From: Sphingopyxis sp. MSC1_008
Lineage (GTDB): Bacteria > Pseudomonadota > Alphaproteobacteria > Sphingomonadales > Sphingomonadaceae
Assembly (NCBI RefSeq): GCF_023197165.1
Contig: NZ_JALPRD010000012.1
Span: 62,001-126,000 of the forward strand
DNA length: 64,000 bases
Direction of reading: 5' to 3'
Shown: piece after piece, positions 3,001 to 62,170 of the stretch
How positions within the stretch are numbered: position 1 is the stretch's first letter
Layout: each line of letters begins with the position of its first letter
Made by a program: the position numbers and the translations under genes
Notes under the pieces: model-generated
Told to the model about the DNA's origin: nothing
The model's input: only the letters and a program-made list of their open reading frames with translations
The model's database searches: none

Positions 3001-4522
3001 TGCGGGCACCTTGCTCGTCACCGCCGACAATGGCGGTTTCGGCGGCAGCACGGCGGTCGCGGGCGGCACGCTCGCGGTCCAGGGCAGCCTCGGCGGCGCG
3101 GCAAATATCGGTTCGGCGGGCCGGCTCGAAGGCGCCGGCCGCGTCGGCAGCCTTGTCAACGCGGGCGTCGTCGCACCGGGCAGCAGCATCGGATCGCTGA
3201 CCGTCTCGGGCGACTATGCCGGCAATGGCGGGGTGCTCGAGATCGAGGCGGAGCTTGGCGGCGATGCATCGCTCGCCGACCGTCTGATCGTGAACGGCGC
3301 CACGTCGGGCAATACGCGGGTCACGGTGATCAACCGCGGCGGCATCGGCGACCAGACGGTCGAGGGGATCAAGATCGTCGATGTCGCGGGCGCATCGAAC
3401 GGTAGCTTCACGCTCGAAGGCGACTATCTGTTCGACGGCGAGCAGGCGGTGGTCGTCGGCGCCTATGGCTATCGCCTCTACAAAAATGGCGTTTCGACGC
3501 CGCAGGACGGCGACTGGTATCTGCGCTCCGCGCTGCTCGCCGGCGAGAACCCGCAGGGCCCGCTCTATCAGCCGGGTGTCCCCGTCTACGAAGCCTATGT
3601 CGGGGCGCTACAGTCGCTCAATCGCCTGCCGACCTTGCAACAGCGCGTCGGCAACCGGTCGTGGGCCGCGTCGCCGATCGCCGGTGCGGGCCTCTGGGGC
3701 CGGTTCGAGTCCGAACGCCAGCGTCCCGACGCCTTGGTGTCGACCAGCGGCGCCGACCGCAAAGTCGACCAGTGGCAGGCGCAGCTCGGGCTCGATGCGG
3801 TGCTGGCAGAGCGCAGCGACGGCGCGGCGCTCGTCGGCGGGCTGACCGCGCATTATGGCAAGGCGGACAGCGCCGTGACGTCGATCTTCGGCGACGGCAC
3901 GATCGATACGCAGGGCTATGGCGTCGGCGCGACGATGACCTGGTACGGACCGAAGGGCTTTTACGTCGACGGGCAGGTCAAGCTCAGCTGGTTCGACAGC
4001 GACCTCGAATCGAACGTCCTCGGATCGCTTGTCCGCGGCAACAAGGGCGACGGACAGGCATTCAGCCTCGAACTCGGCAAGCAGACCCCGATCGGCCGCA
4101 ACCTCAGCATCACGCCGCAGGTCCAGATGAGCTATGCCAAGGTCGATTTCGACCGCTTCGCCGATCCCGCCGAAGCTGCGGTTTCGGTGGCGAAGGGCGA
4201 AAGCCTGAAGACGCGCTGGGGCCTGGCGATCGATCACCAAACGAGCTGGAAGGGCCGGTCGGGCGATACGCGCCGTACGCGCCTCTATAGCGTGGTAAAC
4301 CTCAGCTATGAATGGCTGGACGGCGCCGAGGCCGATGTATCGGGAACGCCGGTTGCCAACCGCGACCGCCGCCTGTCGGGCGAACTCGGTCTCGGCGGCA
4401 GCTATAGTTGGGGCGACGACCGCTTCACCCTCTATACCGAGGTATCGGGCGATACGGCGATCGCCGACTTCGGTGCGGGCTATAATCTGAAGGGGACAGC
4501 GGGTTTCCGGGTGCGGTTCTAA
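2..4522 (+). CDS. Autotransporter outer-membrane protein, 5' end outside window
   Basis: The reading frame is open from base 2, so the gene begins before the window; about 1506 residues are visible. The passenger is a low-complexity Gly/Ala/Thr-rich beta-helix with many copies of passenger-associated repeats of the form GAGTLVLTG...YTGGT. A module of about 386 residues centred on the motif LNFWDGAAGPK (near nt 1200 and nt 2360) is present twice. After a linker with the typical APGSSIGSLTV motif (near nt 3175) the last ~270 residues (from about nt 3690) form the C-terminal beta-barrel translocator with alternating hydrophobic strands and a terminal Phe (FRVRF). Expected to be type V secreted, surface exposed; probably adhesive, but the ligand cannot be read from the sequence. 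A hairpin follows the stop. Confidence 0.93.
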   Translation, partial: TDAGTLVLTGANSYAGGTTINGGTIRISSDANLGDAAGGLSFGDGTLHTTAAIASTRAVDLAGDATFLTDAGLTLAGAISGAGSLAKDGAGTLVLTANNNYTGGTAIRAGRLELGDGGTSGAIAGDVVTDGLLAFNRSDSTTFAGLISGGGAIEQIGTGTTILTGSHVFTGGTTITAGTLQLGNGGTSGSIIGDVVNNGTLAFNRADAVTFAGLISGSGGVDHIGSGTTILTGGNSYAGATNVTAGTLLVNGNQSAATGLTSVASGATLGGTGIIGGNVVIADGATLAPGAGAPGALAINGNLSLASGATLGFEFGQANDVGGPLNDVVNVGGNLLLDGTLDVAVPVGGAFDIGLYRVINYAGSLTDNGLALGTMPAGANAQVQTSIAGEVNLINTGSATLNFWDGAAGPKFDGAVNGGDGVWQNSLGNDNWADIGGAVNAGYADGAFAIFSGTAGTVTVDNSLGAVSASGMQFAAGGYRIIGDVLTLDGAQAVIRVGDGTAAGAAYVATIDAELTGAAELVKTDAGTLVLTGANGYTGGTSINGGTLQIGADANLGGGAIRFDGGTLQTTASFTLARGVELIGTGGFRTDAGTTLTLAGALSGAGSFTKSGDGTLVLDGSGAFGGATVGGGTMFVNGDYAAATGTTNVLAGATLGGTGTIGGNVAIGNGATLAPGAGAAGTLTVGGNLSLSATTQLDFDFGAVGVVGGALNDLVNVGGDLVLDGVLNVGVPAGSAFDIGVYRMFNYGGALTDNGVTLGTMPAGANAVVQTAVAGQVNLVNSAGLALNFWDGAAGPKNNGTINGGNGVWQASGGNDNWTDEDGAVNAGYADGAFAIFGGTGGTVTVDNSLGAVSVVGMQFAANNYVITGGGIELTDPTATIRVGDGSAAGAGFTATINSVLGGAAQLVKSDAGTLVLGGTNSYAGGTLITGGTLRISSDANLGAAGGDVTLDGGTLETSASLASARDIVVASSGAISAAADTVFTYNGLFSGSGTLTKNGAGTLLVTADNGGFGGSTAVAGGTLAVQGSLGGAANIGSAGRLEGAGRVGSLVNAGVVAPGSSIGSLTVSGDYAGNGGVLEIEAELGGDASLADRLIVNGATSGNTRVTVINRGGIGDQTVEGIKIVDVAGASNGSFTLEGDYLFDGEQAVVVGAYGYRLYKNGVSTPQDGDWYLRSALLAGENPQGPLYQPGVPVYEAYVGALQSLNRLPTLQQRVGNRSWAASPIAGAGLWGRFESERQRPDALVSTSGADRKVDQWQAQLGLDAVLAERSDGAALVGGLTAHYGKADSAVTSIFGDGTIDTQGYGVGATMTWYGPKGFYVDGQVKLSWFDSDLESNVLGSLVRGNKGDGQAFSLELGKQTPIGRNLSITPQVQMSYAKVDFDRFADPAEAAVSVAKGESLKTRWGLAIDHQTSWKGRSGDTRRTRLYSVVNLSYEWLDGAEADVSGTPVANRDRRLSGELGLGGSYSWGDDRFTLYTEVSGDTAIADFGAGYNLKGTAGFRVRF

Positions 4523-4536
4523 GCTGCGGCCGTTGT

Positions 4537-4566
4537 GCGAACGCTCCGGACCCACGGAGCGTTCGC
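4537..4566. terminator. Hairpin between convergent autotransporter and trmB
   Basis: A 12-bp perfect stem (GCGAACGCTCCG paired with CGGAGCGTTCGC) with a 6-nt loop lies 15 nt after the autotransporter stop and before the trmB stop on the opposite strand. The following T tract is poor, so it may be a weak or bidirectional terminator. Confidence 0.6.
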
Positions 4567-4630
4567 TCTTGACCGTTGGGGGGTCGGAAACGGACCGTCC
4601 TCAACCGGTCAAGCGTGACCATTTGGTGCG

Positions 4631-5344
4631 TTAACGGCGCCTATAGCGGAAATACCAGACCTCGTGCCCCTGCGCGCGCGCCTTGGCTTCGTAGCGCGTC
4701 TCGGGCCAGCCGCCGGGGCGAACCTCGAAATCCTGCGAATCCTGCGCCAGCCATTCGAACTGGTGGCGGTGGCGGCGCATCACCATCAGCGCGTGCTGCA
4801 GATAGATCGGATGGTCGGTGCCGAACCGGAACTCGCCGCCGGGTTTCAGCTTCGCCGCTATCAGGTCGAGCGGGCCGTCGTTCATCATCCGCCGTTTCGC
4901 ATGGCGCGCCTTGGGCCAGGGATCGGGGTGGAGCAGATAGGCGAAGCTCAGCGCGCCGTCGGGAATGCGCCGCAGCACCTCCAGTGCATCGCCGAAATGA
5001 ATGCGGACGTTGCCTAGCGGCAAGCGTTCGCCATGATCTCCCGAAACATGCACCAGCGCCTGCGCGACCCCGTTGAGAAAGGGTTCGGCGCCGATGAAGC
5101 CATGATCGGGCAGCATGTCGGCGCGCCCCGCCATATGCTCGCCGCCGCCAAAGCCGATCTCGAAATGGAGCGGGCGGTCGTATCCGAACAGGGCTTCGGC
5201 GGTGACGTCGCCCTCGGCGGGCACCGCGATCTGCGGGAGCAGCGTGTCGACCAGGTCTTGCTGGCCTGCGCGAAGGGGCTTGCCCTTCGAACGGCCATAG
5301 AGGCGGTTGATCGTCGTCGGATCGCCGGGTTTGTAAGCAGTCAT
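4631..5344 (-). CDS. trmB: tRNA (guanine-N7-)-methyltransferase TrmB
   Basis: 237 residues. SAM-dependent methylation of G46 in the variable loop of tRNA. The family signature is complete: the SAM-binding region (FEIGFGGGEH), the acidic pocket around IGAEPFLNG, and the PDPWPKARHAKRR motif with HxKRR. The ATG at 5344 (MTAYKPGD) gives the family's usual length; the frame stays open for 63 codons further upstream but that extension is Arg-rich and unlike TrmB. It lies 44 nt after the threonine synthase gene and is probably the last gene of the lnt-metK-thrC-trmB run; lnt, metK and trmB neighbour each other in many alphaproteobacteria. Confidence 0.96.
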   Translation of the reverse strand: MTAYKPGDPTTINRLYGRSKGKPLRAGQQDLVDTLLPQIAVPAEGDVTAEALFGYDRPLHFEIGFGGGEHMAGRADMLPDHGFIGAEPFLNGVAQALVHVSGDHGERLPLGNVRIHFGDALEVLRRIPDGALSFAYLLHPDPWPKARHAKRRMMNDGPLDLIAAKLKPGGEFRFGTDHPIYLQHALMVMRRHRHQFEWLAQDSQDFEVRPGGWPETRYEAKARAQGHEVWYFRYRRR

Positions 5345-5388
5345 GGCGCGCGCGTTAGCCCCAAGGCCGCGCGGCGGCAAGCCGCTCG

Positions 5389-6648
5389 TCAGAGGCGCGT
5401 GAAGTCGATGGCGGCGTGGCGGTCGAGCGTCTGCGAGGCGTCGGGCAGCGGATATTTGAGCCCGGTGGCGCAGTTGAAGAGCAAAGCGGTCTCGCCATCC
5501 TTCACCCAGCCCTCGGCGCGCGCCTGCCGCCAAGCCGCGAGCGTCGCGCCGCCTTCGGGACAGAGAAGCAGGCCGTCGGTGCGCGCGGCGTCGTTGACGG
5601 CTTGGCTGATGGCGGCGTCGCTGACCGCGATCGCGTGGCCGTTCGATTCGCGTACCGCGTCGAGGATCAGGAAATCACCCACCGCCTGCGGGACGCGGAT
5701 GCCGGCTGCGATCGTATGCGCGTCTTCCCAGCGCACCGCATGGCGTTCGCCCGCCTCCCACGCGCGGACCATCGGCGCGCAGCCCTCGGCCTGTACCGCG
5801 ACCATGCGTGGCAGCTTGCCGGTGAGCCAGCCGATCGCCTGCAGTTCGGCGAACGCCTTCCACATGCCGATCAGCCCGGTGCCGCCGCCGGTGGGGTAGA
5901 AGATGACGTCGGGCAGCTCCCAGCCGAATTGTTCGGCGAGCTCGAGCCCCATCGTCTTCTTGCCCTCGATCCGGTAGGGCTCTTTCAGCGTCGACAGGTC
6001 GAACCAGCCGTTCGCCGCCGCACCTTCGCGCACCAGTTTGCCGCAATCGTCGATCAACCCGTTGACGCGGTAGACGCGCGCGCCTTGAGCGGCGATCTCG
6101 CGGACATTGATCTCGGGCGTGTCGTCGGGGCAGAAGATGATCGCTTCGATCCCGGCCTGCGTCGCATACGCCGCCGCCGCGGCGCCGGCATTGCCGTTGG
6201 TCGGCATCGCAATGCTGGTAACGCCCAACTCCTTCGCCATGCTGATCGCCATGACGAGCCCGCGCGCCTTGAACGATCCGGTCGGCAGACGGCCCTCGTC
6301 CTTGACGAGCAGCGTGCCCGCATGCGCGCCCGCCGCCGCCGCAATCTTGTCGAGCGCGATGATCGGCGTGTCGGCTTCGCCGAGGCTGATGATATTCTCG
6401 GCGTGCCGCACCGGCAGCAGCTCGCGCCACCGCCACAGGTCGCGTGGCCGTGCGGCCATTTCCGCCTTGTCCAGCGCCGCCGCAACGCCGCTCAGGTCAT
6501 AGCGGACGAGCAGCGGGCGCCCGGCGTTCGAGAGGCCGTGCAGGACATCGGCCTCGACCCGCTCGCCGGTCAGCCCGCACTCAAGATGCGTGACGAAGGT
6601 CGGCCGCTTGGCCGTCAGATTGGCGCCCAGCGGCAGCGACGCGCTCAA
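5389..6648 (-). CDS. thrC: Threonine synthase (PLP-dependent)
   Basis: 419 residues from a proposed TTG start at 6648. Converts O-phosphohomoserine to threonine in the cytosol. Fold-type II PLP enzyme: PLP lysine in GSFKARG (K127), substrate-binding TNGNAG, phosphate loop GGGTGLIG. The N-terminus keeps the short CGLTGE motif and LLVRYDL of the plant/archaeal-type threonine synthases, with most zinc-ribbon cysteines lost. Start choice: the first ATG in frame (6696) would reach 52 nt into metK, whereas TTG at 6648 overlaps the metK stop as TTGA, has AAGG about 12 nt upstream and gives a protein that begins just before the conserved region. Translational coupling to metK is likely. A related PLP lyase remains a minor alternative. 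Confidence 0.87.
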
Positions 6649-7865
6649 TTTGCGAGCGCAGCCTTGAGCTTGTCGACGAGGTCGGTGCGTTCCCACGGGA
6701 AGCTGTCACCCTCCGACGTGCGGCCGAAATGGCCGTATGCCGCGGTCTGCTTGTAGATCGGCTTGTTGAGGCCGAGGTGGGTGCGGATGCCCTTCGGCGT
6801 CAGGCGCACGAGCTGCGGGATGACCGCCTCGATCTTGCCTTCGTCAACGGTACCGGTGCCGTGCAGGTCGACATAGATCGACAGCGGTTCGGCGACGCCG
6901 ATCGCGTAGCTCAGCTGGATCGTGCAGCGGCGCGCGAGGCCCGCGGCGACGATATTCTTCGCGAGATAGCGCGTGACATAGGCAGCCGAACGGTCGACCT
7001 TCGTCGGGTCCTTGCCGCTGAACGCACCGCCGCCGTGCGGGCTCGCGCCGCCATAGGTGTCGACGATGATCTTGCGGCCGGTCACGCCGGCGTCGCCGTC
7101 GGGGCCGCCGATCTCGAAACGCCCGGTCGGGTTGATGTGATAGACGGTGTTCGCGGTGAGCAGCTCGGCGGGCAGCACGTCGGCGATCACGCCGAGGACG
7201 TACTTGCGCAGCTCGGTGTATTTCGCTTCGTCGCCTTCGCCATTGTGGAAATAATAGCCCGGTGCGTGCTGGGTCGACACGACGATCGCGGTCGCCTCAA
7301 CCGGACGCTCGTTGGCGTAGCGCAGCGTGACCTGGCTCTTGGTGTCGGGTTCGAGGAAGGGTGCGGTGCCCGTCTTGCGGTCGGCCGCCATGCGCTCGAG
7401 GATCTTGTGGCTGTAATCGAGCGTCGCGGGCATCAGATCGGGGGTCTCGTCCGACGCATAGCCGAACATGATCCCCTGGTCGCCGGCGCCTTCGTCCTTG
7501 TCGCCGCTTTCGTCGACGCCCTGCGCGATATGCGCCGACTGGGCGTGGAGATTATTCTCGAAGCGAAAGCTTTCCCAGTGGAAGCCATCCTGCTCGTACC
7601 CGATGTCCTTCACCGTCTTGCGCACGGTGGCCTCGATCTCGTCGAGTGCGCCCGGCGCCCACTCGTCATTCTCGAACACGCCCTTGCAGCGGATTTCGCC
7701 CGCCAGCACGACGAGCTGGGTGGTGGTCAGCGTCTCGCACGCGATACGGGCTTCGGGATCCTTCGACAGGAACAGGTCGACGATCGAATCGCTGATCTGG
7801 TCGGCCACCTTATCGGGATGTCCTTCGGACACGCTTTCGGAGGTGAAGAGGAAGCTGTTGCGCAT
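6645..7865 (-). CDS. metK: S-adenosylmethionine synthetase MetK
   Basis: 406 residues, full length. Makes SAM from methionine and ATP. Signatures present: N-terminal [12 protein letters not shown], the DQGIMFGYA hexapeptide region, and the glycine-rich P-loop-like [19 protein letters not shown] block. Starts at ATG 7865 with GAAGG six nt upstream. It is preceded at 50 nt by lnt and followed by the TTGA-overlapping threonine synthase gene. Its short leader can form a hairpin whose loop is complementary to the ribosome-binding site (see separate entry), suggesting translational control. Confidence 0.97.
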
Positions 7866-7915
7866 GGAGAGCCTTCTATGAACGGATATAAAGGAAGCTT
7901 TATGTGGGGGTGCTG
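7866..7915 (-). promoter_or_regulatory. metK leader with RBS-complementary hairpin (candidate pseudoknot)
   Basis: In the 50-nt leader (minus strand) a perfect 6-bp stem ATAAAG/CTTTAT (7903-7898 with 7893-7888) closes a CTTC loop (7897-7894). The loop can pair with GAAG (7876-7873), which is part of the GAAGG ribosome-binding site six nt before the ATG. This would be a compact H-type pseudoknot that hides the RBS. It does not match the SAM-II or SAM/SAH riboswitch consensus as I remember them, although metK leaders are a common home of SAM-sensing RNAs. Structure is seen; regulation is inferred. Confidence 0.35.
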
Positions 7916-49451: not shown

Positions 49452-49700
49452 GAACATGAACTTTCCTGGCGGCAAGGCGGGGCTGCGTTGCGGTCAGGTT
49501 GCGGTCCATGGCGAGAATCTCCGATTGGTTGAACTGGGAATGTAGGGGCCGCGGTTGCGGCATGCAACGGTTGTGGGCTGGGCGGCGGGTCGGAGGGTGA
49601 TCCGAAAACGACCGTTAGACGACATTGCGCTGAAGGTCTGGTAATATCATCGCGGACTGTCGGCATCAGTCGCGCGAAAATCGTGAGGGGGCAGGGCGAG

Positions 49701-49940
49701 ATGGTGGAGAGTTTTGGAGCACTGGTCGGCTGGACACACCATGATGCGGGAGACCGTATAATGCTTCGGCTCGAAAGCGTACAGTCTTCCGAAGCGGCCA
49801 AGAAGCACGACCCCGATTTGTTTCGGTTCCTGATGACCAAGCAGCAAGCGGCTATCTTGGGCGATTATCTGGTGCGGCTGTCCGGTCAACCGCCAGTCGT
49901 TCCCAAAAAGCGGGGCTGGTTTCGTCGTCATTTCGGCTGA
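49701..49940 (+). CDS. Small hypothetical protein
   Basis: 79 residues from ATG 49701 (GGGGCAGGGCGAG directly upstream). Charged, no signal peptide, with a helical HDPDLFRFLMTKQQAAILGDYLVRL segment and a basic C-terminus ending KKRGWFRRHFG. Resembles small sphingomonad hypothetical proteins; no function assigned. The 249 nt before it, upstream of the ABC-F gene, show nothing else. Confidence 0.65.
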   Translation: MVESFGALVGWTHHDAGDRIMLRLESVQSSEAAKKHDPDLFRFLMTKQQAAILGDYLVRLSGQPPVVPKKRGWFRRHFG

Positions 49941-50107
49941 CGGGGCTGCTGGCGATTGAATTGAGCTGCTGGGGGTCCGTCCGGTCCCGTCATCGAATGT
50001 CGCCGGGGGCAGCAAGGTCAATTGGCTCAACGGCAGCGAATCACCGCAAAGCGGCCGCTATCCGGCGCCGCGTGTGTTATCCGAATAAAACCCCTTGCCA
50101 AGCATGC

Positions 50108-50137
50108 GCTACAAATGTAGCACGCTACAAATGTAGC
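50108..50137. promoter_or_regulatory. Twin BlaI/MecI-type operators
   Basis: Two identical 14-bp near-palindromes GCTACAAATGTAGC at 50108-50121 and 50124-50137 (16 bp repeat period), carrying the TACA...TGTA core known for BlaI/MecI/CopY repressors. They lie 17 bp before the blaI-like ATG, next to a TTGCCA that could be a -35 box (50095-50100). Strongly suggests autoregulation of the operon. Confidence 0.8.
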
Positions 50138-50153
50138 GCATGAGGTGAGTCGC

Positions 50154-50528
50154 ATGTTGTCCAGTTTACCCCCGCGGGAACGCGAGATCGTCGATATTCT
50201 TTATGAGCGCGGTGCGTCGACTGTGACCGAGATCGGCGAGGCGCTGGCCGACGAATTGTCAGGTTCGGCGATCCGCGCCATGCTGAAGCGGCTCGAGACC
50301 AAGGGCTTTGTCGCCCGCGAACAGTCGGACCGCGGTTTCGTCTATGCGCCCAGCGTGTCGGACAAGACGGCGCGTAAGTCGGCGCTGAGCCAAGTCGTGC
50401 GCGTCTTTTTCAACGGATCGGCGACGAGCGCCGCCGCCGCCTTGCTCGGCATGCAGGACGAGATGAGCAATAGCGAACTCGACGAACTCGAACAGATGAT
50501 CGCCAAAGCGCGCGAAGGGAGAGCGTGA
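50154..50528 (+). CDS. BlaI/MecI/CopY family repressor
   Basis: 124 residues from ATG 50154 (GAGG eight nt upstream; GTG 50145 lacks an RBS). Winged-helix domain with LPPREREIVDILYERGASTVTEI, then a dimerisation helix and the conserved SALSQVVRVFFNGSATSAAAALL part. In this family the repressor is cut by a BlaR1-type protease or released from DNA by inducer. Stop overlaps the M56 start region. Twin operators lie just upstream. Confidence 0.94.
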   Translation: MLSSLPPREREIVDILYERGASTVTEIGEALADELSGSAIRAMLKRLETKGFVAREQSDRGFVYAPSVSDKTARKSALSQVVRVFFNGSATSAAAALLGMQDEMSNSELDELEQMIAKAREGRA

Positions 50529-52252
50529 TGTTGACCACTGCCATGTTGCTTGGCCTTGCCTGGAAATCCGTCATTGTCGCGGCGCTGACGCTGGGGCTGT
50601 TGCGGCTCGCGCGGTGGCGTTCGGCCGGCGAGCGGTCGATGATCGCGCACGCCGGGCTGATGGCGCTGCTCGCGCTGCCCGCGGCGATCCTGCTGCTGCC
50701 GCAATGGGCTCCGCTTCCCGCGAGTTGGTCCTTCGAACCCGCCGCGCCGATCGTGCAAACGGCAACAACGGGGGGATCGGCGATCGATCCGGCACCCGCC
50801 GCGACGTCAGTCCCTGTCGTGGTGGATAGTGCCGGATCGACGCCGATCGTCTTTTCGTGGAGCGACCTTGCCCCCTTTCTCTATCTTGTCCCGCTCCTGC
50901 TATTATCTGGAGTGATGGCGCTCGCGGTGGTGCGGCTGTTCGCGATGCGTGGGCGCGCCGAGATCCTTGTCGAGCGGTCGTGGTTGTCGGCGCTCGCCGA
51001 GGCGCAGCGGCGCATGGGCTTCAAGCATGGCACCGCGTTGCTGGTCAGCAACGAGCTGCGTTCGCCGATCAGCTGGGGCGTGCTGCGCCCGACGATCGTG
51101 CTGAGCCCGAAGGCGGTCGCGGCGTCGGGTGAGGCCGAGGCAATCATCGCGCACGAGCTGGCGCATGTCGCGCGGCTCGACTGGGCGAAATTGCTCGGGG
51201 CGCGGGTCGCGTGCGCGGTATTTTGGTTCAATCCGCTGGTATGGGTGCTGGCGCGTGAAAGCCATCAATTGCGTGAGGAAGCCGCCGACGACGCGGTGCT
51301 GATGGCCGATATCAACGGGCCCGACTACGCGACCTTGCTGGTCGGCGCGGCGCGGCACGACAATCAGGGCGCGCTGCTTGCCGCGCATGGTGTCGCGCCG
51401 GGCAAGGACAGCCTGAAGCGCCGTATCACCCGCGTCCTCGACGGCAGCCTGAAGCGCGGCCCGGCGAGCGCGAGCTGGATGTTGATGAGCCTGGTCGTGC
51501 TCGCGGGGATCACCGTGCCGCTCGCCGCCTTCTCGGCGACGGCCAAGCCGGAGGCGACGGCGGACGTCCACTCCGTCGTCGCCTCGACGACCAAGGAGAC
51601 GACGACCGTGACATCGCGGTCCGCCGCAGCCGCAAAAGCCGTTGCGGCCGATGATGCGGCTACCGCCGCGGCGACATCGAAGACGCTCTCCGCCGAACAG
51701 CTGGTGAGCATGCGCGCGGTCGGCGTGACCCCCGAATATGTCGCCAAGATGCGCGAGCATGGCGGATCGCTCGACGCCGATGAGATTATTTCGGCGAAGG
51801 CGAGCGGGATCGATCCAGCCTATATCCGCCAGATGCGTGACATCATTCCCGGCGCCGATTTCGACGAACTGGTCGGCGCGCGACATGTCGGCGTCAACGC
51901 CGCCTTTGCCCGCGACATGAAGTCGCATTTCCCCGACATTGGGATCGACGACCTCGTCGCGCTGAAGGCAATGGGGATCGACTGCGACTTCGTTACCGAC
52001 ATGCAGAAGTCGGGGGTGAAGATGCGCGATGCCGACGACGCGATCAAGCTTCGCGCGACGAGCGGGTTTCGGCCGGTGAAGCCCCGCCCGGCGGCGAAGC
52101 CACGCCCGGTGACGAAGGCCGTGCGCGGCGACAATGTTGCGGTCGTCGATATGGAGCGCGGCGTGATCGAGGCGCGCGGCGGGGATGGCCGGACCGCGCG
52201 GATCGAATTCCCCGCATCGCCGGAACCGCCCGAGCCGCCCGTCCGCGACTGA
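50528..52252 (+). CDS. BlaR1-like M56 membrane metallopeptidase with repeat C-terminus
   Basis: 574 residues from ATG 50528 (TGATG overlap with the BlaI stop; GTG 50525 also possible). Membrane helices at about 8-28, 38-58, 115-140 and 317-338 surround the M56 domain with zinc motif HELAH (209-213) and the downstream REEAADDAVL. After the last helix comes a Thr/Ala-rich linker, then four or five ~30-residue repeats (about 388-510) of the form LDADEIISAKASGIDPAYIRQM, and a Pro/Lys-rich tail. BlaR1's penicillin-binding sensor domain is missing; the repeats replace it. Confidence 0.9.
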   Translation: MLTTAMLLGLAWKSVIVAALTLGLLRLARWRSAGERSMIAHAGLMALLALPAAILLLPQWAPLPASWSFEPAAPIVQTATTGGSAIDPAPAATSVPVVVDSAGSTPIVFSWSDLAPFLYLVPLLLLSGVMALAVVRLFAMRGRAEILVERSWLSALAEAQRRMGFKHGTALLVSNELRSPISWGVLRPTIVLSPKAVAASGEAEAIIAHELAHVARLDWAKLLGARVACAVFWFNPLVWVLARESHQLREEAADDAVLMADINGPDYATLLVGAARHDNQGALLAAHGVAPGKDSLKRRITRVLDGSLKRGPASASWMLMSLVVLAGITVPLAAFSATAKPEATADVHSVVASTTKETTTVTSRSAAAAKAVAADDAATAAATSKTLSAEQLVSMRAVGVTPEYVAKMREHGGSLDADEIISAKASGIDPAYIRQMRDIIPGADFDELVGARHVGVNAAFARDMKSHFPDIGIDDLVALKAMGIDCDFVTDMQKSGVKMRDADDAIKLRATSGFRPVKPRPAAKPRPVTKAVRGDNVAVVDMERGVIEARGGDGRTARIEFPASPEPPEPPVRD

Positions 52253-52365
52253 CGCCCGGACATTCGTCCGTAGCGACCGACGATTAATCGAAACCTGATT
52301 CAAAATTGCCGCTGCGGCGGCGAGCGATGACGCTCGCCCGGCGCACGGAGGGAGGAGTGCACCAA

Positions 52366-53112
52366 ATGAAAGCCCTGTATTTTGCCGGCGGCGCCGCGCT
52401 GCTGTCGATCCTCGCCTGTTCGGCACCGACGGCGGCCGCCGACCCGCTCGTCCTGAGCGACGTCAGTTGGGTCGCCGAACCCGCGAGCGGAAAGAAGGGC
52501 GCGCCGCGCGTCCGCATCCAGCACAAACAGTCGAGCAGCGATCATAGCTTCGACGGCTCGCGCCCCTATTTTGCCGCGGCGGAAGCCTCACTCGGCCGGA
52601 CGACGCCGGGGCCTGTCAGCTTTACCGTGACGCATGATGCGGGGACGCTGGCGTGCACCGGCACGTTAACGCGTGCGTTTGAGGGGAAGGGCGACTGCCG
52701 CTTCACCTCCGACCCCGCTTTCGAGCGCGCGCTCGGCGAGCGCGGGCTGGCGCCCGGCCGGCGTTCGGCCTTGCTTGCGATGCTGCTCGTCGATGCGACG
52801 ATTGAGCTTGCCGACGGGCTCACGCGCGAGGGGGTGCGGCCGAAGGATGCCGACGACCTGATCGCGGCGGCGGCGCTCGAGGTGCGGCCCGAATATATCC
52901 GCGATCTGAAGTCCGAGGCGCTGGTCCTGACCGACGTCGAAGACGCGATCGCGTGCAAGGCGCTCGGCGTCGACGGCGCCTATGTGCGCGGGCTGGCTGC
53001 AGCGGGATACAGGAAACTGAGCGCCGACCAAGTCGTCGGAATGAAGGCGATGGGCGTCACGGGCGAATATGCGCAGGCGATGAACCGCGCGGCGAGGGGA
53101 CCTTCCAAGTGA
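52366..53112 (+). CDS. Exported protein sharing the repeats of the M56 protein
   Basis: 248 residues from ATG 52366 (GGAGGAG about 10 nt upstream). Signal peptide, perhaps a lipobox (ILAC). Middle part (27-115) is a beta-rich domain with a Cys pair. From ~155 to the end there are three repeats like those at the C-terminus of the preceding protein (VRPEYIRDLK, LGVDGAYVRGL, MGVTGEYAQAM). Its stop overlaps the GTG of the receptor gene. Likely a periplasmic partner of the M56 protein. No known family recognised. Confidence 0.87.
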   Translation: MKALYFAGGAALLSILACSAPTAAADPLVLSDVSWVAEPASGKKGAPRVRIQHKQSSSDHSFDGSRPYFAAAEASLGRTTPGPVSFTVTHDAGTLACTGTLTRAFEGKGDCRFTSDPAFERALGERGLAPGRRSALLAMLLVDATIELADGLTREGVRPKDADDLIAAAALEVRPEYIRDLKSEALVLTDVEDAIACKALGVDGAYVRGLAAAGYRKLSADQVVGMKAMGVTGEYAQAMNRAARGPSK

Positions 53113-55205
53113 AGCGATGGACAAGCCTGATTGCGGTTGCGGCCGCGCTCTCCACGCCTGTGCTGGCGCAGGAGACGGCGGCGCCGACGGGTGACACCCC
53201 GCCGCCCGCGCCGGCCGAGATCGCGCCGACCGCGACGAGCACTGCGCGGCAGGTCTATACGCCCGCCGACTTTGCGCGCTACGCGCCGAAAAATGCCTAT
53301 GACATGCTGATCCAGGTGCCGGGCTTCCAGATTCGCGACAATGAACTGCTGCGCGGGCTGGGGCAGGCGACGGGCAACGTCCTGTTCAACGGCGAGCGGC
53401 CGTCGAACAAGGCCGACGATATGTATACGCAGCTGTCGCGCATCCCCGGCGGCAATGTCGAACGGATCGAGGTCGTCGACGGCTCTACGCTCGATATTCC
53501 GGGGCTGTCGGGGCAGGTCGCCAATATCGTCTACCGCGCCGATGCCTTTTCAGGGCAGTTTTCGTGGAAGCCCGAATTTCGCGCGCATTACACCGATCCG
53601 CTTTTCACTCGCGCCGACGTGTCGGTGCGTGGCCGCACGGGGGCGGTCGAATATGAGGTCGCGCTCAACAACGACGATTCGGCGCGCAGCGGCGCGGGCG
53701 GGCCAACTTTGATCTATGACGGTGCGCGCAATATCACCGAACAGCGCAAGGACATCTGGAACACGCACTACGACACGCCGAAGCTGTCGGGGCGGATCAC
53801 CTGGGATCCGGCGGGCGACACCGTTGCCAATCTCGGTGGGCATTATCAGCGCAAATATGACCGCTATTACGAGGATGGCGTGCGCACCGGCCCCGGCCTG
53901 CCCGACCGCATCCGCACGGTGTATGAAAATGCCGATAGCTGGAATTACGAGGTCAGCGGCGATTACCAGTTCGGGCTGGGGCCCGGGAAGCTGAAGCTGA
54001 TCGGGCTTCGCCGCTTCAGCCACGAGCCTTACCGCCAGGAAATCGTCACGACTCCCGAGGGTGGCATTGCCACGGGCGACCGCTTTGCGCAGACCGGCGA
54101 TATCGGCGAGACGATCGGACGCGGCGAATATCAGTGGAAGATGTTCGGCGGTGACTGGCAATTGTCGGGCGAGGCCGCGTTCAATACGCTCGATAATGTG
54201 GCATCGATCGCAGTGCTCGATCCTGCGGGGGCGTGGGTCGACCAGCCGTTCGAGGGCGGCACCGGCGGGGTCAGCGAGGACCGTTATGAAGGTTTGCTGA
54301 GCTTCGGGCGCAAGCTGACCGACAAGCTCAATTTCCAGATCATCGCGGGCGCCGAACATTCGACGATCACGCAGACAGGCATGAACGGCCTGACGCGCAG
54401 CTTCTTTCGTCCCAAGGGCTCGATTTCGCTCGCGTGGACCCCGTCGCCCGATTTCGACATTTCGGTGAAGCTGCGGCGGCGCGTGCTGCAATTGAGCTTC
54501 TATGATTTCCTCGCGCGCGCGTTCCTCAACGACGGCAACCAGAATGAGAGCAACAACGACCTGAGGCCGCAGCAGGACTGGACGTATGAGGCCGAGATCA
54601 ACAAGAAATTCGGCGCGTGGGGTTCGACCAAGATCATCCTGATCTATCGCGACGTCGAGGACCGCGTCGATGTGATCCCGATCGGGACCGATGGCGAGGC
54701 GGTCGGGAATATCGCGAAGGCGAAGGCGGGCGCGATCGACTGGACGGCGACGATCAATCTCGACCCCGCCGGGATCAAGGGGATGAAGCTCGAACCCCGG
54801 ATGCTGCTGCAGAAGAGTTCATTGCGCGATCCCTTCACCGGCGAGAAAAGGCAGTGGAACGGCTTTACCGATACGGTGATCAGCCTGGGCCTGCGCCACG
54901 ACATTCCGGCCAGTGATTGGGCGTGGGGCGGTGACGTCGAATATTCGCATTATCAGCCCAATTATCGCCGCAACCAGACCGACAAGGTGTGGGAAGGGCC
55001 GGTCTGGGCGTCGGTCTTTGTCGAGCACAAGGATGTGCTGGGCCTGACCGTGCGAGCGTCGATCCGCAACATCGCCAACGCCCGCTCGAAGCGCGACCGG
55101 ACCGCCTATACGGGGGTGCGCGGCGAAAGCCCGGTGAGCTTTATAGAGGAGCGCGACCGGCTGATCGGGCCGATCTTTTCCTTTTCGGTGCGCGGAAAGT
55201 TCTGA
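53109..55205 (+). CDS. TonB-dependent receptor-like outer-membrane protein
   Basis: 698 residues from GTG 53109 (GGGGA upstream, overlapping the previous stop as GTGA). Signal peptide cleaved after VLA. Plug domain with AYDMLIQVPGFQI, NVLFNGERPSNKADD and NVERIEVVDGS, then a large beta-barrel ending in Phe (FSFSVRGKF). No clear TonB box is visible. Ligand unknown. Its place at the end of the BlaI/M56 operon suggests it is the output of, or the signal source for, that system. Confidence 0.88.
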   Translation: MKRWTSLIAVAAALSTPVLAQETAAPTGDTPPPAPAEIAPTATSTARQVYTPADFARYAPKNAYDMLIQVPGFQIRDNELLRGLGQATGNVLFNGERPSNKADDMYTQLSRIPGGNVERIEVVDGSTLDIPGLSGQVANIVYRADAFSGQFSWKPEFRAHYTDPLFTRADVSVRGRTGAVEYEVALNNDDSARSGAGGPTLIYDGARNITEQRKDIWNTHYDTPKLSGRITWDPAGDTVANLGGHYQRKYDRYYEDGVRTGPGLPDRIRTVYENADSWNYEVSGDYQFGLGPGKLKLIGLRRFSHEPYRQEIVTTPEGGIATGDRFAQTGDIGETIGRGEYQWKMFGGDWQLSGEAAFNTLDNVASIAVLDPAGAWVDQPFEGGTGGVSEDRYEGLLSFGRKLTDKLNFQIIAGAEHSTITQTGMNGLTRSFFRPKGSISLAWTPSPDFDISVKLRRRVLQLSFYDFLARAFLNDGNQNESNNDLRPQQDWTYEAEINKKFGAWGSTKIILIYRDVEDRVDVIPIGTDGEAVGNIAKAKAGAIDWTATINLDPAGIKGMKLEPRMLLQKSSLRDPFTGEKRQWNGFTDTVISLGLRHDIPASDWAWGGDVEYSHYQPNYRRNQTDKVWEGPVWASVFVEHKDVLGLTVRASIRNIANARSKRDRTAYTGVRGESPVSFIEERDRLIGPIFSFSVRGKF

Positions 55206-55222
55206 CCGGCTAAGGGAATCCG

Positions 55223-55600
55223 ATGGTGGCGCGCCGCATCAAGATCTATTTCGACGGCGGGTGCCGGCCCAATCCGGGGAAGATGGAAACCGCCGTGGTG
55301 ACCGGCGGCGCCGCGACGGTCGTGCGCGACGCGGGGATCGGCAGCAGCATGGATGCCGAGTGGTTGGCGCTGATCGCGGCACTGCGGCTGGCACAGGATC
55401 TGGGGCTGACGAATTTTGTCCTGCTCGGCGACGCGGCGGCGGTGGTGGAGCAGGCGAATGATGTGGTGCGGGCGCGCGGCGATGCCGCGTCACACCTCGC
55501 CACTTTCCGTGCGCTCGTTGGTGAAGGCCCGTTGCCGAACATACGCCATATCAAGCGGACGCAGAATCTTGCGGGGATCGCGCTGGCACGCGGGCGATAA
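55223..55600 (+). CDS. RNase HI-like protein, one catalytic Asp missing
   Basis: 125 residues. RNase H fold with YFDGGCRPNPG (D11), DAEWLALIAAL (E46) and VLLGDAAAVV (D70), but the fourth metal ligand is Gly in the final NLAGIALAR (normally N..AD.LA). Short compared with RNase HI. Could be a plant-type RNase H-like protein with altered activity. Ends 80 nt before the PAS gene. Confidence 0.85.
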   Translation: MVARRIKIYFDGGCRPNPGKMETAVVTGGAATVVRDAGIGSSMDAEWLALIAALRLAQDLGLTNFVLLGDAAAVVEQANDVVRARGDAASHLATFRALVGEGPLPNIRHIKRTQNLAGIALARGR

Positions 55601-55680
55601 GGTGCCGAAGGGCTGTCCATCGGGATCACCAGTTGTTAAGCGACACGTGCCTATCCTTGGCGGCCCAATGGAAGACCAGC

Positions 55681-56172
55681 GTGTTGAAGCCGACGCATCC
55701 CTTGCCTGTTCATCATAGCTGGCCGCTTTACGAGCGTGATCGCTTTTTCGAGCTTGGGCAGCTTCATCACGGCGATACGCTCGACCCGATCCCCGACGTC
55801 GTCGATGTCGCGGCGCGGCTGTTGCCGACGCCTGCGCGGATTGGCCAATGGGAATGCGACCTTACCGACAACAACCGGCTGAGCTGGTCGGACGAGGTCT
55901 ATGATATTTTCGGCATTCCGCGAGGTGCCGCCATCACGCGCGACGAGACGGTCGCGCTTTATGCCGAGGGGTCGCGCGCGGCGATGGAGAAGCTGCGCGC
56001 CTATGCGATCAGGCACCGGCGCGGCTTCACGCTCGATGTCGAAATCAGGCCCGCGCAGGCGCCGCGACGATGGATGCGGTTGATCGCAGCGCCGCTCTGC
56101 GTGGACGACCGCATCGTCCGGCTTCAGGGGGTGAAATTCCTTGTTTCGGGCTCGGGTGGTCCCGAATTTTGA
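55681..56172 (+). CDS. PAS-domain protein
   Basis: 163 residues from GTG 55681 (GGAAG six nt upstream; a TTG at 55633 is in frame). PAS_3-type fold: IGQWECDLTDNNRLSWSDEVYDIFGI, the helical middle and a C-terminal RRWMRLIAAPL strand. No kinase or GGDEF part, so a sensor or adaptor alone. The N-terminal ~45 residues are not PAS-like. Followed by a 171-nt gap and mreB. Confidence 0.82.
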   Translation: MLKPTHPLPVHHSWPLYERDRFFELGQLHHGDTLDPIPDVVDVAARLLPTPARIGQWECDLTDNNRLSWSDEVYDIFGIPRGAAITRDETVALYAEGSRAAMEKLRAYAIRHRRGFTLDVEIRPAQAPRRWMRLIAAPLCVDDRIVRLQGVKFLVSGSGGPEF

Positions 56173-60352: not shown

Positions 60353-62170
60353 TCACTTCTTCTTCGCCGCGATGTAGCGCGTCACCTGCTCTTCGAGGAT
60401 GTCGAGCGGCAGCGCGCCTTCGCTGAGGACCGCTTCGTGGAAGTCGCGGATGTCGAAGCGCGGGCCAAGCTCGCTTTCGGCGCGTTTGCGGAGCTCGGCG
60501 ATCTTGAGCTGGCCGACCATGTAGCTCGTCGCCTGACCCGGCCAGTTGAAATAGCGGTCGACTTCGCGGGCTATGTCGGTGTCCGACACCGAGCTGTTCG
60601 CCTTGAAGTAAGCGATCGCCTGTTCGCGCGTCCAGCGCTTCGAATGGATGCCGGTGTCGAGCACGAGGCGGATCGCGCGCCACACCTGCAGCGATAGCAT
60701 GCCGAAGCGGTCATAGGGGGTCTTGTACACGCCCATCTCGTTCGCGAGCCGTTCGGAATAGAGCCCCCAGCCCTCCATATAGGCGCCATAGCCGCCGAAC
60801 TTCCGGAACTTGGGAATACCGGTGAGTTCCTGCTGGCGCGCGATCTGGAAATGGTGGCCCGGCGCGCCTTCGTGCGCGGCGATCCCGGCGACCTGCACCT
60901 TCTGCGTCTGGTTCATGTCGACGAGGTTGACGTAATAGATGCCGGGGCGCGTGCCGTCGGCCGAGGGCGGGTTGTAGAAGGCGGTCGACGCCGTCCCCTC
61001 GCGCCATTTCTCGACCGCGCGCACTTCGAGCGGCGCCTTGGGCAGGACGCGGAAATAGCGCGGCGCGGCGGTCATCACCGATGCGATGACCGCGCGCGCA
61101 TCGGCGAGATAGGTTTCGCGGCCCGCCTCGGTATTCGGATATTTGAACTGCGGGTCGGTGCGGATGTGGTCGAAGAACTGTTCGAGCGTGCCGGTGAAAC
61201 CGACCTCGTTTTTGATCGCCTCCATCTCGCCGCGGATCGCCGCGACCTGCGCGAGGCCGAGGTCGTGGATCTGGTCGGCGGTGAGGCTGGTGGTGGTCGA
61301 GCTCTTCAGCCGGTCGGCATAATAGGCCGCGCCGTCGGGGAGGCTCCACGCTCCGAAATTGCCCTTCGATTTGGGCTCGATTTCGTCGATCGCGGCGATC
61401 AGCGCGGTGTAACCCTGCTTGAACGGGCCGGTCAGCGCGGCGCTTGCGTCGGCGAGCAGCTTGGCCTTGGTCGCCGCTGGGGCATCGAGCGCATCGACCT
61501 TTTTGCGAAAGTCGGCCAGAAGGGTCGAATCGGCGCCACTGCCGAAGGGCGCGCCCGTGATGACTTTCAGCGCATCGGCACGCGCAGGGGCGAAATTGAC
61601 CTTGTTGGGGATGATCCCTGCCGCCGCCTGTTCGCGCATCGTCGCCGCGACTTCGCGCATCACGCGGTCGGTGTCGCGCAGGCGGGCGATATAGGCCTCG
61701 GCATCGGCGACGCTGTCGATCTTGTGGTTGTTGATCAGCAGGACGGGGATCGCGCCGGCGGGGCTGCCGTTGGTCGAGACGGGGAAGCGCAGCTTGCGGA
61801 AACGGAGCGATTCGCGGCCGCGCTCGACTTCATATTCGAACAGGCGGTAGCTGACGCGCGCGCTTTCGCCGAGCTGGCCCGGCTTGAAGCGCGCGTGCAT
61901 GGCCTTCAGCTGGCGTTCGGCCAGTTCCTGATCGCGGACCGATGCGGCGTCGGTGTAATCGTCGAGCTTGGCGTAATTGGTCTTGAGGCCAAGCTGGGTC
62001 TGCGATTCAGGGCTGAGGCCGAGCCGCTCTTCGAACGCCTGATCGAGGAAGTCGAGCAGGGCCTCGTCCTGCGCACCGGCTTGCGGTGCCGTCTGTGCGA
62101 AGGCGGGCGCGGTCATCGGCGCGAAGGGCAGGACGGGGAGCAGCATCAGGGCAACGGCAAAGCGCATCAC
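60353..62170 (-). CDS. Exported DUF885 family metalloprotease-like protein
   Basis: 605 residues (a second ATG is one codon on). Signal peptide ending APAFA (about residue 25). Zinc-type motif HEGAPGHHFQ (433-442) followed by YMEGWGLYSE about 30 residues on, which carries the third ligand Glu as in the family. Mostly alpha-helical. Function unproven; probably a periplasmic carboxypeptidase-like enzyme. Palindromic elements flank it on both sides. Confidence 0.92.
   Translation of the reverse strand: MMRFAVALMLLPVLPFAPMTAPAFAQTAPQAGAQDEALLDFLDQAFEERLGLSPESQTQLGLKTNYAKLDDYTDAASVRDQELAERQLKAMHARFKPGQLGESARVSYRLFEYEVERGRESLRFRKLRFPVSTNGSPAGAIPVLLINNHKIDSVADAEAYIARLRDTDRVMREVAATMREQAAAGIIPNKVNFAPARADALKVITGAPFGSGADSTLLADFRKKVDALDAPAATKAKLLADASAALTGPFKQGYTALIAAIDEIEPKSKGNFGAWSLPDGAAYYADRLKSSTTTSLTADQIHDLGLAQVAAIRGEMEAIKNEVGFTGTLEQFFDHIRTDPQFKYPNTEAGRETYLADARAVIASVMTAAPRYFRVLPKAPLEVRAVEKWREGTASTAFYNPPSADGTRPGIYYVNLVDMNQTQKVQVAGIAAHEGAPGHHFQIARQQELTGIPKFRKFGGYGAYMEGWGLYSERLANEMGVYKTPYDRFGMLSLQVWRAIRLVLDTGIHSKRWTREQAIAYFKANSSVSDTDIAREVDRYFNWPGQATSYMVGQLKIAELRKRAESELGPRFDIRDFHEAVLSEGALPLDILEEQVTRYIAAKKK

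Follow-up and report, generated by a model that had tools for sequence, protein, structure and literature searches.

Results

The window, the 64,000-nucleotide stretch of Sphingopyxis DNA that was analysed, holds at positions 50108-55205 an operon in which two BlaI-type operators are followed by blaI, a gene for an M56 membrane protease, a gene for a secreted repeat protein (RP) and a gene for a TonB-receptor-like barrel (Table 1). All four genes were confirmed as the original prediction had described them, the repeat tail of M56 included. The prediction of a single overlapping operon held in part. The blaI and M56 genes overlap by one base and the RP and barrel genes by four, and no other gene pair overlaps; the M56 stop (52252) is separated from the RP start (52366) by a 113-bp gap. 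Consensus and site scans found no promoter-like site and no operator in this gap, and no terminator-like site on its + strand (one lies on the - strand); the consensus scan returned no promoter upstream of blaI either. Because the gap has no promoter-, + strand terminator- or operator-like site, we infer that the four genes form one transcript. As also predicted, Pfam and NCBIfam searches showed no beta-lactamase or penicillin-binding domain in any of the four genes.

Table 1. Features of the operon, in window coordinates
Feature	Position	Strand	Basis or remark
BlaI-type operator 1, GCTACAAATGTAGC	50108..50121	.	exact form in own genome: here and operator 2 only
BlaI-type operator 2, GCTACAAATGTAGC	50124..50137	.	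site scan
blaI repressor gene (ATG start), 124 aa	50154..50528	+	PF03965 E 1e-23
M56 membrane protease gene, 574 aa	50528..52252	+	PF05569 E 2e-28; alternative GTG start 50525
HELAH zinc motif of M56, residues 209-213	51152..51166	+	aligns with BlaR1 HEXXH
M56 tail repeats, five units (fifth weak)	51686..52063	+	repeat model; putatively periplasmic
RP, secreted repeat protein, 248 aa	52366..53112	+	signal peptide, beta domain, repeats
Three RP repeats homologous to M56 tail	52846..53091	+	hhalign and repeat models
TonB-receptor-like outer-membrane protein, 698 aa	53109..55205	+	PF07715 Plug E 4e-8; GTG start overlaps RP stop

Three other identities for the locus were rejected: Rfam gave no match at gathering score for an RNA element in 49500-56000, PADLOC gave weak matches to known defence systems for BlaI alone (best E 6.4e-5), and for a plasmid-borne system, tblastn against a plasmid collection matched neither RP (E 1e-3) nor M56 (1e-10).

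TACA/TGTA is the consensus of BlaI/MecI operators. The twin operators had been predicted, and they are the sole TACANNTGTA sites of the window, at 50110 and 50126. The exact GCTACAAATGTAGC operator is unique to this promoter within the 4.75-Mb genome, and 71 of 73 related loci carry one or more TACANNTGTA sites in the 150 bp ahead of blaI. Extra operator sites lie about 100 bp before a PF00144 gene in genome G591 and before a Lumazine_bd_2 gene in genome G609.

BlaI matched PF03965 (Penicillinase_R) at 84.3 bits (cut-off 22.6) and M56 matched PF05569 at 99.9 bits (cut-off 31). The best Foldseek match of M56 was S. aureus BlaR1 (8exq, E 1.6e-5), its HEXXH and EXXXD residues line up with those of BlaR1 in an alignment with 8exs, and all 33 aligned sequences share H209, E210, H213, D218, E250 and D254. 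Judged from these residues, M56 is a protease with the BlaR1 catalytic motif. PMC9834060 places the BlaR1 self-cleavage bond at Ser283-Phe284, with which Gly288-Val289 of M56 aligns, inside the conserved segment AHGVAP; the same paper describes the BlaR1 loop EL1 (residues 56-96) as displaced by ligand, and the M56 loop between helices 2 and 3, of low confidence in the model, sits at the EL1 position. The NCBIfam BlaR1 model scored M56 at 62.4 bits (cut-off 400). No C-terminal penicillin-binding sensor domain was found in M56 by Pfam at E up to 1, and its tail consists of repeats.

In the predicted structure, M56 residues 389-511 form helix pairs at high pLDDT. The units are spaced 28-29 residues apart in the window and mostly 25-34 in relatives. 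Similar repeats may occur in other phyla. The start of RP resembles a signal peptide by eye, and Pfam matched no domain in RP up to E 1. The repeats of the M56 tail and of RP were homologous in an hhalign profile comparison (E 2.8e-50), as the original prediction required. Among the 565 ORFs of the window, the unit model of the M56 tail found RP at E 9.7e-24 and that of RP found M56 at E 3.3e-33, the next-best ORFs having E 0.83 and 0.86; both models had been built from related loci, of which some are near-identical to the window. In a tblastn search of the full genome, which involves no trained model, the M56 tail matched only itself and RP (E 1.6e-8). Chance or composition as the source of the likeness is ruled out by tblastn, hhalign and the unit models together. 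For the predicted model of RP, the best Foldseek match had E 7.7e-3 and the best VIA-align match Z 4.1; with no confident fold among them, these searches are evidence neither for nor against a new fold. In 21 chosen loci, tail and RP repeats of one locus were more alike (0.384) than those of different loci (0.348), and none of 20,000 permutations was as high, a resemblance of which shared ancestry can be the cause; in four of the 21, the RP of the same locus was among the least similar to its tail (ranks 13 to 19).

Conservation of the gene order had been named in the original prediction as a check; of 78 related loci, 52 have this order. Among 31 loci picked regardless of tail kind, RP is present in 12 of the 16 with a repeat tail versus none of the 15 without one (Fisher 1.6e-5, ignoring relatedness); the loci share descent, so these counts are not independent. 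The repeat-tail label needs eight changes on the tree. Repeat-tail loci lacking RP exist (L145, L159, L160 and L161 of the 16, three of them from one genus, and also L082), indicating that some loci do without RP. Three genes resembling RP stand alone (two in G081, one in G149), and the 13 kb around each contain no blaI, no TACANNTGTA site and no relative of M56 or of the barrel. The tail-less clade L149-151 keeps the operator and has neither RP nor barrel; a gene downstream belongs to the beta-lactamase family in L149 (PF13354, E 6.4e-21) and, by eye, in L151. More widely, an M56 match was present in 288 of 397 genomes of the family of the window organism. A phylum-level search with the RP alignment gave matches in at least three of 398 genomes, the own genome included, with up to six candidates scored per genome, so relatives may be missed.

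In three loci a DUF2807/GIN domain (PF10988) replaces the repeats as the M56 tail. Two of the three have a separate GIN protein alongside, and the third (L097) has none; in the family of the L097 genome, a similar M56 was found in one of 198 genomes, the L097 genome itself (up to seven candidates scored). L103, a GIN-tail locus from a metagenome bin in which the M56 frame is interrupted, is nested among repeat tails on the tree; the GIN tail could be ancestral. The broader GIN model also showed GIN genes in L178 and L179, and the set of M56 loci with GIN was the same under the narrower and broader models. In two of 14 genomes (G549 and G553) a GIN gene lies directly behind the exact operator, and no exact site was found in any of 10 other genomes of the G549 genus; the GIN pair of the own genome (G000:C8) has no TACANNTGTA site nearby. 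Across 15 genomes, the exact operator was not commoner away from blaI than its reversed control (3 sites versus 14), and only its placement before GIN genes is informative. The co-occurrence of RP with repeat tails, the pairing of GIN tails with GIN proteins and the operator before GIN genes suggest that the protease tail tends to match in kind the secreted protein regulated with it. The co-occurrence and the GIN exchange also lend indirect support to the proposal, made in the original prediction, that the exported protein and the M56 tail bind one another or share a ligand.

The barrel matched PF07715 (Plug) at 34.2 bits (cut-off 23.9). PF00593 (TonB_dep_Rec) gave no match in the window barrel, and the relative in L097 passes it (32.3 versus 27 bits). 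Pfam at E up to 1 showed Plug alone and no N-terminal signalling (STN) domain, and direct signal transduction by the barrel is unsupported on this result; no sequence of a solved structure matched at E up to 1. A scan of 128 loci, several of which are one place counted twice, gave a relative (E 1e-20) in 74. Many relatives carry ahead of the plug a segment like VYTPADFARYAP, a candidate TonB box. The barrel gene directly follows M56 in L097 and L145. In seven loci that combine a repeat tail with RP and extend 4 kb or more downstream (L070, L072, L074, L075, L077, L078 and L092), no related barrel scores above 60 bits; L072 gives a weak 44-bit match. By eye, a different TonB-receptor-like ORF lies farther along in L074, L077, L078 and L092. 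Nothing supports the barrel as reporter of the signal: it is itself a product of the operon, shows only Plug by Pfam and has no relative above 60 bits in these seven loci.

Discussion

The BlaR1 sensor resembles a beta-lactamase, and the operon shares this arrangement with BlaR1-BlaI and MecR1-MecI: a BlaI-family repressor with TACA/TGTA operators, an M56 gluzincin with conserved catalytic and self-cleavage segments, and a sensor behind the last membrane helix that is homologous to a co-regulated secreted protein. Unlike in those systems, the tail consists of repeats (GIN in a few relatives) rather than a class-D-beta-lactamase-like sensor, and the operon has no beta-lactamase or PBP gene, its other products being a repeat protein and a TonB-type barrel. 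DUF2807/head-GIN (PF10988), which stands in for the repeats in those few relatives, is absent from the window operon. TonB-dependent receptors of the FecA type have an N-terminal signalling domain and work with sigma and anti-sigma factors. A Plug-domain outer-membrane receptor inside the regulated operon is common to both, whereas the window has a BlaI/M56 pair in place of sigma/anti-sigma and no signalling domain by Pfam. The repeat profile matched TAL effector chains (E 3.1e-12; RP profile 5.6e-14) and IcmE/DotG (E 1.6e-7). TAL-effector repeats are 33-35-residue units with paired specificity residues; in contrast to these and other two-helix solenoids, the window repeats are spaced 28-29 residues apart on proteins that are probably exported, and the likeness may be merely general. 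To our knowledge, no signal has been described for M56 proteases beside no known resistance gene. None of the titles listed in searches of open-licence papers describes a blaI-M56-RP-barrel operon of this sort; passages of PMC10470040 do no more than name an M56 gene and a BlaI gene of Porphyromonas in tables.

By analogy, the operon is most likely a self-contained switch that works like BlaR1/BlaI with another sensor. BlaI would sit on the twin operators and silence the operon, until a signal at the periplasmic tail led the cytoplasmic protease domain to cut BlaI and the operon was made. The signal would most likely be something that RP also recognises, a proposal drawn from BlaR1, whose sensor and the beta-lactamase both recognise beta-lactams. 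RP may then act on the ligand or terminate the response, while the barrel may carry the ligand through the outer membrane or protect the cell from it. We lean slightly towards this scheme of derepression by proteolysis as in BlaR1, in which the exchanged sensor either has its ligand in common with its secreted homologue or binds that homologue.

Direct binding of RP to the tail is the close second reading. In a feedback form of it, which we regard as rather unlikely, RP would bind the tail repeat-to-repeat and hold the protease off; M56 would fire once RP is drawn off, for example by a ligand or an unassembled barrel, and new RP would reset it. The repeats common to both proteins, the encoding of RP in the very operon to be controlled and the higher tail-RP likeness within loci, though ancestry can cause it, speak for such feedback, but repeat-tail loci without RP, RP-like genes without M56 and the four loci with a poorly matching RP speak against it. 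Less probable still is an envelope-stress-like sensor of barrel assembly, in which RP would assist the TonB-type receptor and misassembled receptor or free RP would be what the tail watches for. This would fit the four-base overlap of the RP and barrel genes, their adjacency in most loci and the barrel gene directly after M56 in L097 and L145, but the tail-less clade has the operator and no barrel, and the seven RP loci have no related barrel above 60 bits. We think it very improbable that the operon is still a beta-lactam or cell-wall-damage system in which the tail detects fragments of the cell wall and the former target gene has been replaced: the beta-lactamase-family genes downstream in L149 and L151 and the extra operator in G591 are in its favour, but the protease has no penicillin-binding domain, the operon no such gene and the genome no other exact operator.

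A general rule for M56/BlaI switches, which we put forward tentatively and hold to be somewhat doubtful, would be that the periplasmic M56 tail copies a secreted protein controlled by the switch and that the pair is exchanged together in evolution. If true, this mirror rule would span the repeats, GIN and the classical beta-lactamase fold, and the homology between the BlaR1 sensor and beta-lactamase would be a single case within a wider design. The window would then hold one of several undescribed signal types, and an exchangeable tail/partner pair would let the ligand be guessed from the partner, the secreted twin telling what the switch senses. A repeat sensor matched by a secreted repeat homologue hints at undescribed envelope sensing, and the operon offers a compact, single-promoter system for trying tail/partner matching.

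A BlaI/M56 operon with related repeats in its protease and its secreted protein

The window carries blaI together with genes for a BlaR1-like M56 membrane protease (PF05569), a secreted repeat protein (RP) and a TonB-receptor-like outer-membrane protein, the barrel (table). The twin operators anticipated ahead of blaI are present as two exact GCTACAAATGTAGC dyads of the BlaI-type TACA/TGTA form. The original prediction of a single overlapping operon held for the blaI/M56 and RP/barrel gene pairs, which do overlap, but not for M56 and RP, which are 113 bp apart. Since neither a promoter-like site, nor a + strand terminator-like site, nor an operator lies in this gap, one transcript for all four genes is likely.

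Positions of features in the window and in fetched loci
Stretch	Feature	Position	Remark
Window	Operator dyads	50108-50121, 50124-50137	ahead of blaI
Window	blaI	50154-50528	
Window	M56 protease gene	50528-52252	
Window	RP gene	52366-53112	
Window	Barrel gene	53109-55205	
Window	RNase H-like gene	55223-55600	directly 3' of barrel; PF13456 RVT_3, E 1.1e-9
G000:C21 (L115, own genome)	Second, distant BlaI/M56 pair	60444-61244	
L083	RP gene remnant (start only)	7782-7910	between repeat-tail M56 and barrel
L215	Stand-alone RP-like gene	6233-7132	4 to 6 repeats in L215-L217
L216	Stand-alone RP-like gene	5828-6904	
L217	Stand-alone RP-like gene	5902-7011	
L149	Tail-less M56 relative	3352-4680	then beta-lactamase-family gene
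L151	Tail-less M56 relative	3579-4952	then beta-lactamase-family gene
L182 (G591)	Second operator before PF00144 gene	around 3649	next to apparent start of another blaI
L100	M56 relative, HEAT-repeat tail	5902-7431	by eye, stop-interrupted
L101	M56 relative, HEAT-repeat tail	4265-5800	PF13646, E 1.1e-19
L197 (G549)	Operator before GIN gene	1331	TACA 35 bp before gene start
L199 (G553)	Operator before GIN gene	1343	TACA 38 bp before gene start
L180 (G609)	Operator before Lumazine_bd_2-family gene	3494	single exact site

The M56 tail, which replaces the beta-lactam sensor of BlaR1, contains five repeat units (the fifth weak) and RP contains three, spaced 28-29 residues apart. That the two proteins share these repeats was borne out by profile-against-profile comparison (E 2.8e-50, 160 columns) and by whole-genome tblastn, in which the tail matched only itself and RP (E 1.6e-8). 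Structure models predicted short helix pairs for the repeats of both proteins. The RP model (mean pLDDT 91.2) has strands and one helix at 29-115 and then helices to 243; in the M56 model (pLDDT 78.3) the tail helices at 389-511 are mostly above 90 and the linker at 342-383 is below 50. Two RP cysteines, C97 and C111, are invariant in 31/31 aligned sequences. The repeat profiles also matched TAL effector chains and IcmE/DotG, which we read as a common two-helix solenoid, not a common function.

Alignment showed that the M56 domain retains the catalytic residues of BlaR1, and the first six chains found by Foldseek were all S. aureus BlaR1 (E 1.6e-5 to 1.9e-3). PMC9834060 describes spontaneous cleavage of BlaR1 at Ser283-Phe284 and cleavage of BlaI at Asn101-Phe102, and also that ligand displaces the EL1 loop of BlaR1; the Ser283-Phe284 site given there aligns with Gly288-Val289 of the window protein, within a conserved AHGVAP segment. 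In contrast to BlaR1, the window protease lacks the sensor domain, and the operon lacks a BlaR1-type target gene, in line with the predicted absence of a beta-lactamase or PBP gene. Strictly speaking, the system is therefore no BlaR1, though it most likely operates like one.

Conservation of gene order and of the tail-partner pairing

The expected order of blaI, repeat-bearing M56, RP and barrel, on the same strand, recurred in 52 of 78 loci, a sample drawn from the best 80 of 266 relatives with an M56 query that includes the tail and thus favours repeat types. At least 11 of the other 26 meet a contig end (L045, L050, L052, L059, L073, L087, L093, L094, L096, L099, L101), L068 has M56 split over two ORFs, and the rest include real absences. 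The RNase H-like gene has a relative in 33/78 loci, all labelled Sphingopyxis or sphingomonad/proteobacterium.

For a tail-independent sample, 397 family genomes were queried with M56 stripped of its tail (E <=1e-25, up to 5 candidates scored per genome), which gave at least 33 places in at least 31 genomes. All 32 non-window places were fetched; 11 of them are also in the 78-locus sample, so the two overlap. RP was present at 12/16 repeat-tail loci vs 0/15 others (Fisher 1.6e-5) and a related barrel at 11/16 vs 1/15 (6.4e-4), counts that ignore relatedness and leave out L148, where the M56 frame is interrupted and RP and barrel are present. Repeat tails without RP occur at L145, L159, L160 and L161. 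A class-wide sample yielded M56 at E 1e-10 in 13/289 genomes, own included, and the 14 stretches fetched from it showed no repeats. Within the 6.6 kb fetched for the second BlaI/M56 pair of the own genome, there were no repeats and no related barrel.

Searched from its own side, RP matched in 12 of 199 family genomes. The match was an M56 tail in three (G101, G155, G163) and lay beside operon parts in seven (own, G010, G012, G042, G080, G160 and G191, where RP is at a contig end with only the barrel beside it). G081 carries two stand-alone RP-like genes and G149 carries one (28-36% identity); the 13 kb around each contains no TACANNTGTA site and no relative of blaI, M56 or the barrel. A repeat tail thus usually comes with its RP, and RP-like proteins can occur independently of the switch.

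Operator sites and a candidate second target

A TACANNTGTA site lies within 150 bp upstream of blaI in 71 of 73 loci with detected blaI; only L097 and L086 deviate, and at L086 the site stands before a GIN-domain (DUF2807, PF10988) gene preceding blaI. In the own genome, the two copies at the blaI promoter are the only instances of the exact operator GCTACANNTGTAGC. It was found in 14 of 15 chosen genomes, with 22 of 25 sites at the blaI promoter and one other site each in G609, G549 and G591. Reversing the pattern as a control gave 14 sites in the same genomes, so extra exact operators per se are no more than chance. The G609 site, in another genome of the genus, precedes a secreted-looking gene. 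In G591, one of the tail-less-M56 genomes, a second operator precedes a PF00144 gene, adjoining the apparent start of another blaI.

Exact operators precede a GIN gene in G549 (Tsuneonella rigui) and in G553, which is outside the 15-genome count, in both cases on another contig than the operon. These are 2 of the 14 genomes with GIN genes listed, the own genome being among the 12 without such a site, and the reversed control was absent from all 29 stretches around their GIN genes. In G609, a GIN gene is preceded by a looser form, GTTACATGTGTAAC. Of 11 genomes in the genus of G549, only G549 has the exact site, and it is the genus's only match, among the matches listed, to the tail-less M56 query; 9 of the 10 others are in the M56 domain survey sample and presumably also in the 397-genome search. 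The GIN gene thus appears to be a BlaI target in some operon-bearing genomes, a further link between GIN and the repeat system.

Other tail kinds

GIN forms the M56 tail at L086, L097 and L103, and a separate protein at L086 and L103. PF10988 was confirmed in both separate proteins and in the L086 and L097 tails; the L103 tail is visible only via an interrupted frame. Beyond these three (two of them present in duplicate), a broader GIN model picked out among 128 loci only L176, L178 and L179, whose GIN matches were the reason for fetching them. The starred branches of a 49-protein M56 tree require the GIN label to have changed at least twice, and L103 falls in a 100/99 clade that also contains 12 repeat tails and three tail-less proteins. 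The simplest reading of these sequences is that repeat tail and partner were swapped together for GIN; alternatively, the GIN tail could be ancestral. The tail-less clade L149-151, inside the same 100/99 clade, retains a single operator and lacks both RP and barrel; a PF13354 gene is next at L149 and, by eye, at L151. HEAT repeats are a third tail kind. L097, from Alkalisalibacterium limincola, is an isolated gammaproteobacterial copy, and a search of 197 other genomes of its family yielded no similar M56, which suggests acquisition by transfer.

Proposed mechanism

Our search of open-licence literature found no description of a blaI-M56-RP-barrel operon. By analogy with BlaR1, BlaI would repress the operon, the M56 tail would sit outside the cytoplasm, and proteolysis would release repression. 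Tail and RP repeats are more alike within a locus than between loci (0.384 vs 0.348 in 21 chosen loci; 0/20000 permutations as high), which is compatible both with binding of tail and secreted partner to each other and with recognition of the same ligand; ancestry alone may also be the cause. Direct binding is the less preferred proposal, because some tails lack RP, because some RP-like proteins occur without M56, and because the BlaR1 sensor and beta-lactamase provide a precedent for a shared ligand. We therefore favour the reading in which the tail and its secreted partner would recognise one ligand, as the BlaR1 sensor and beta-lactamase do.
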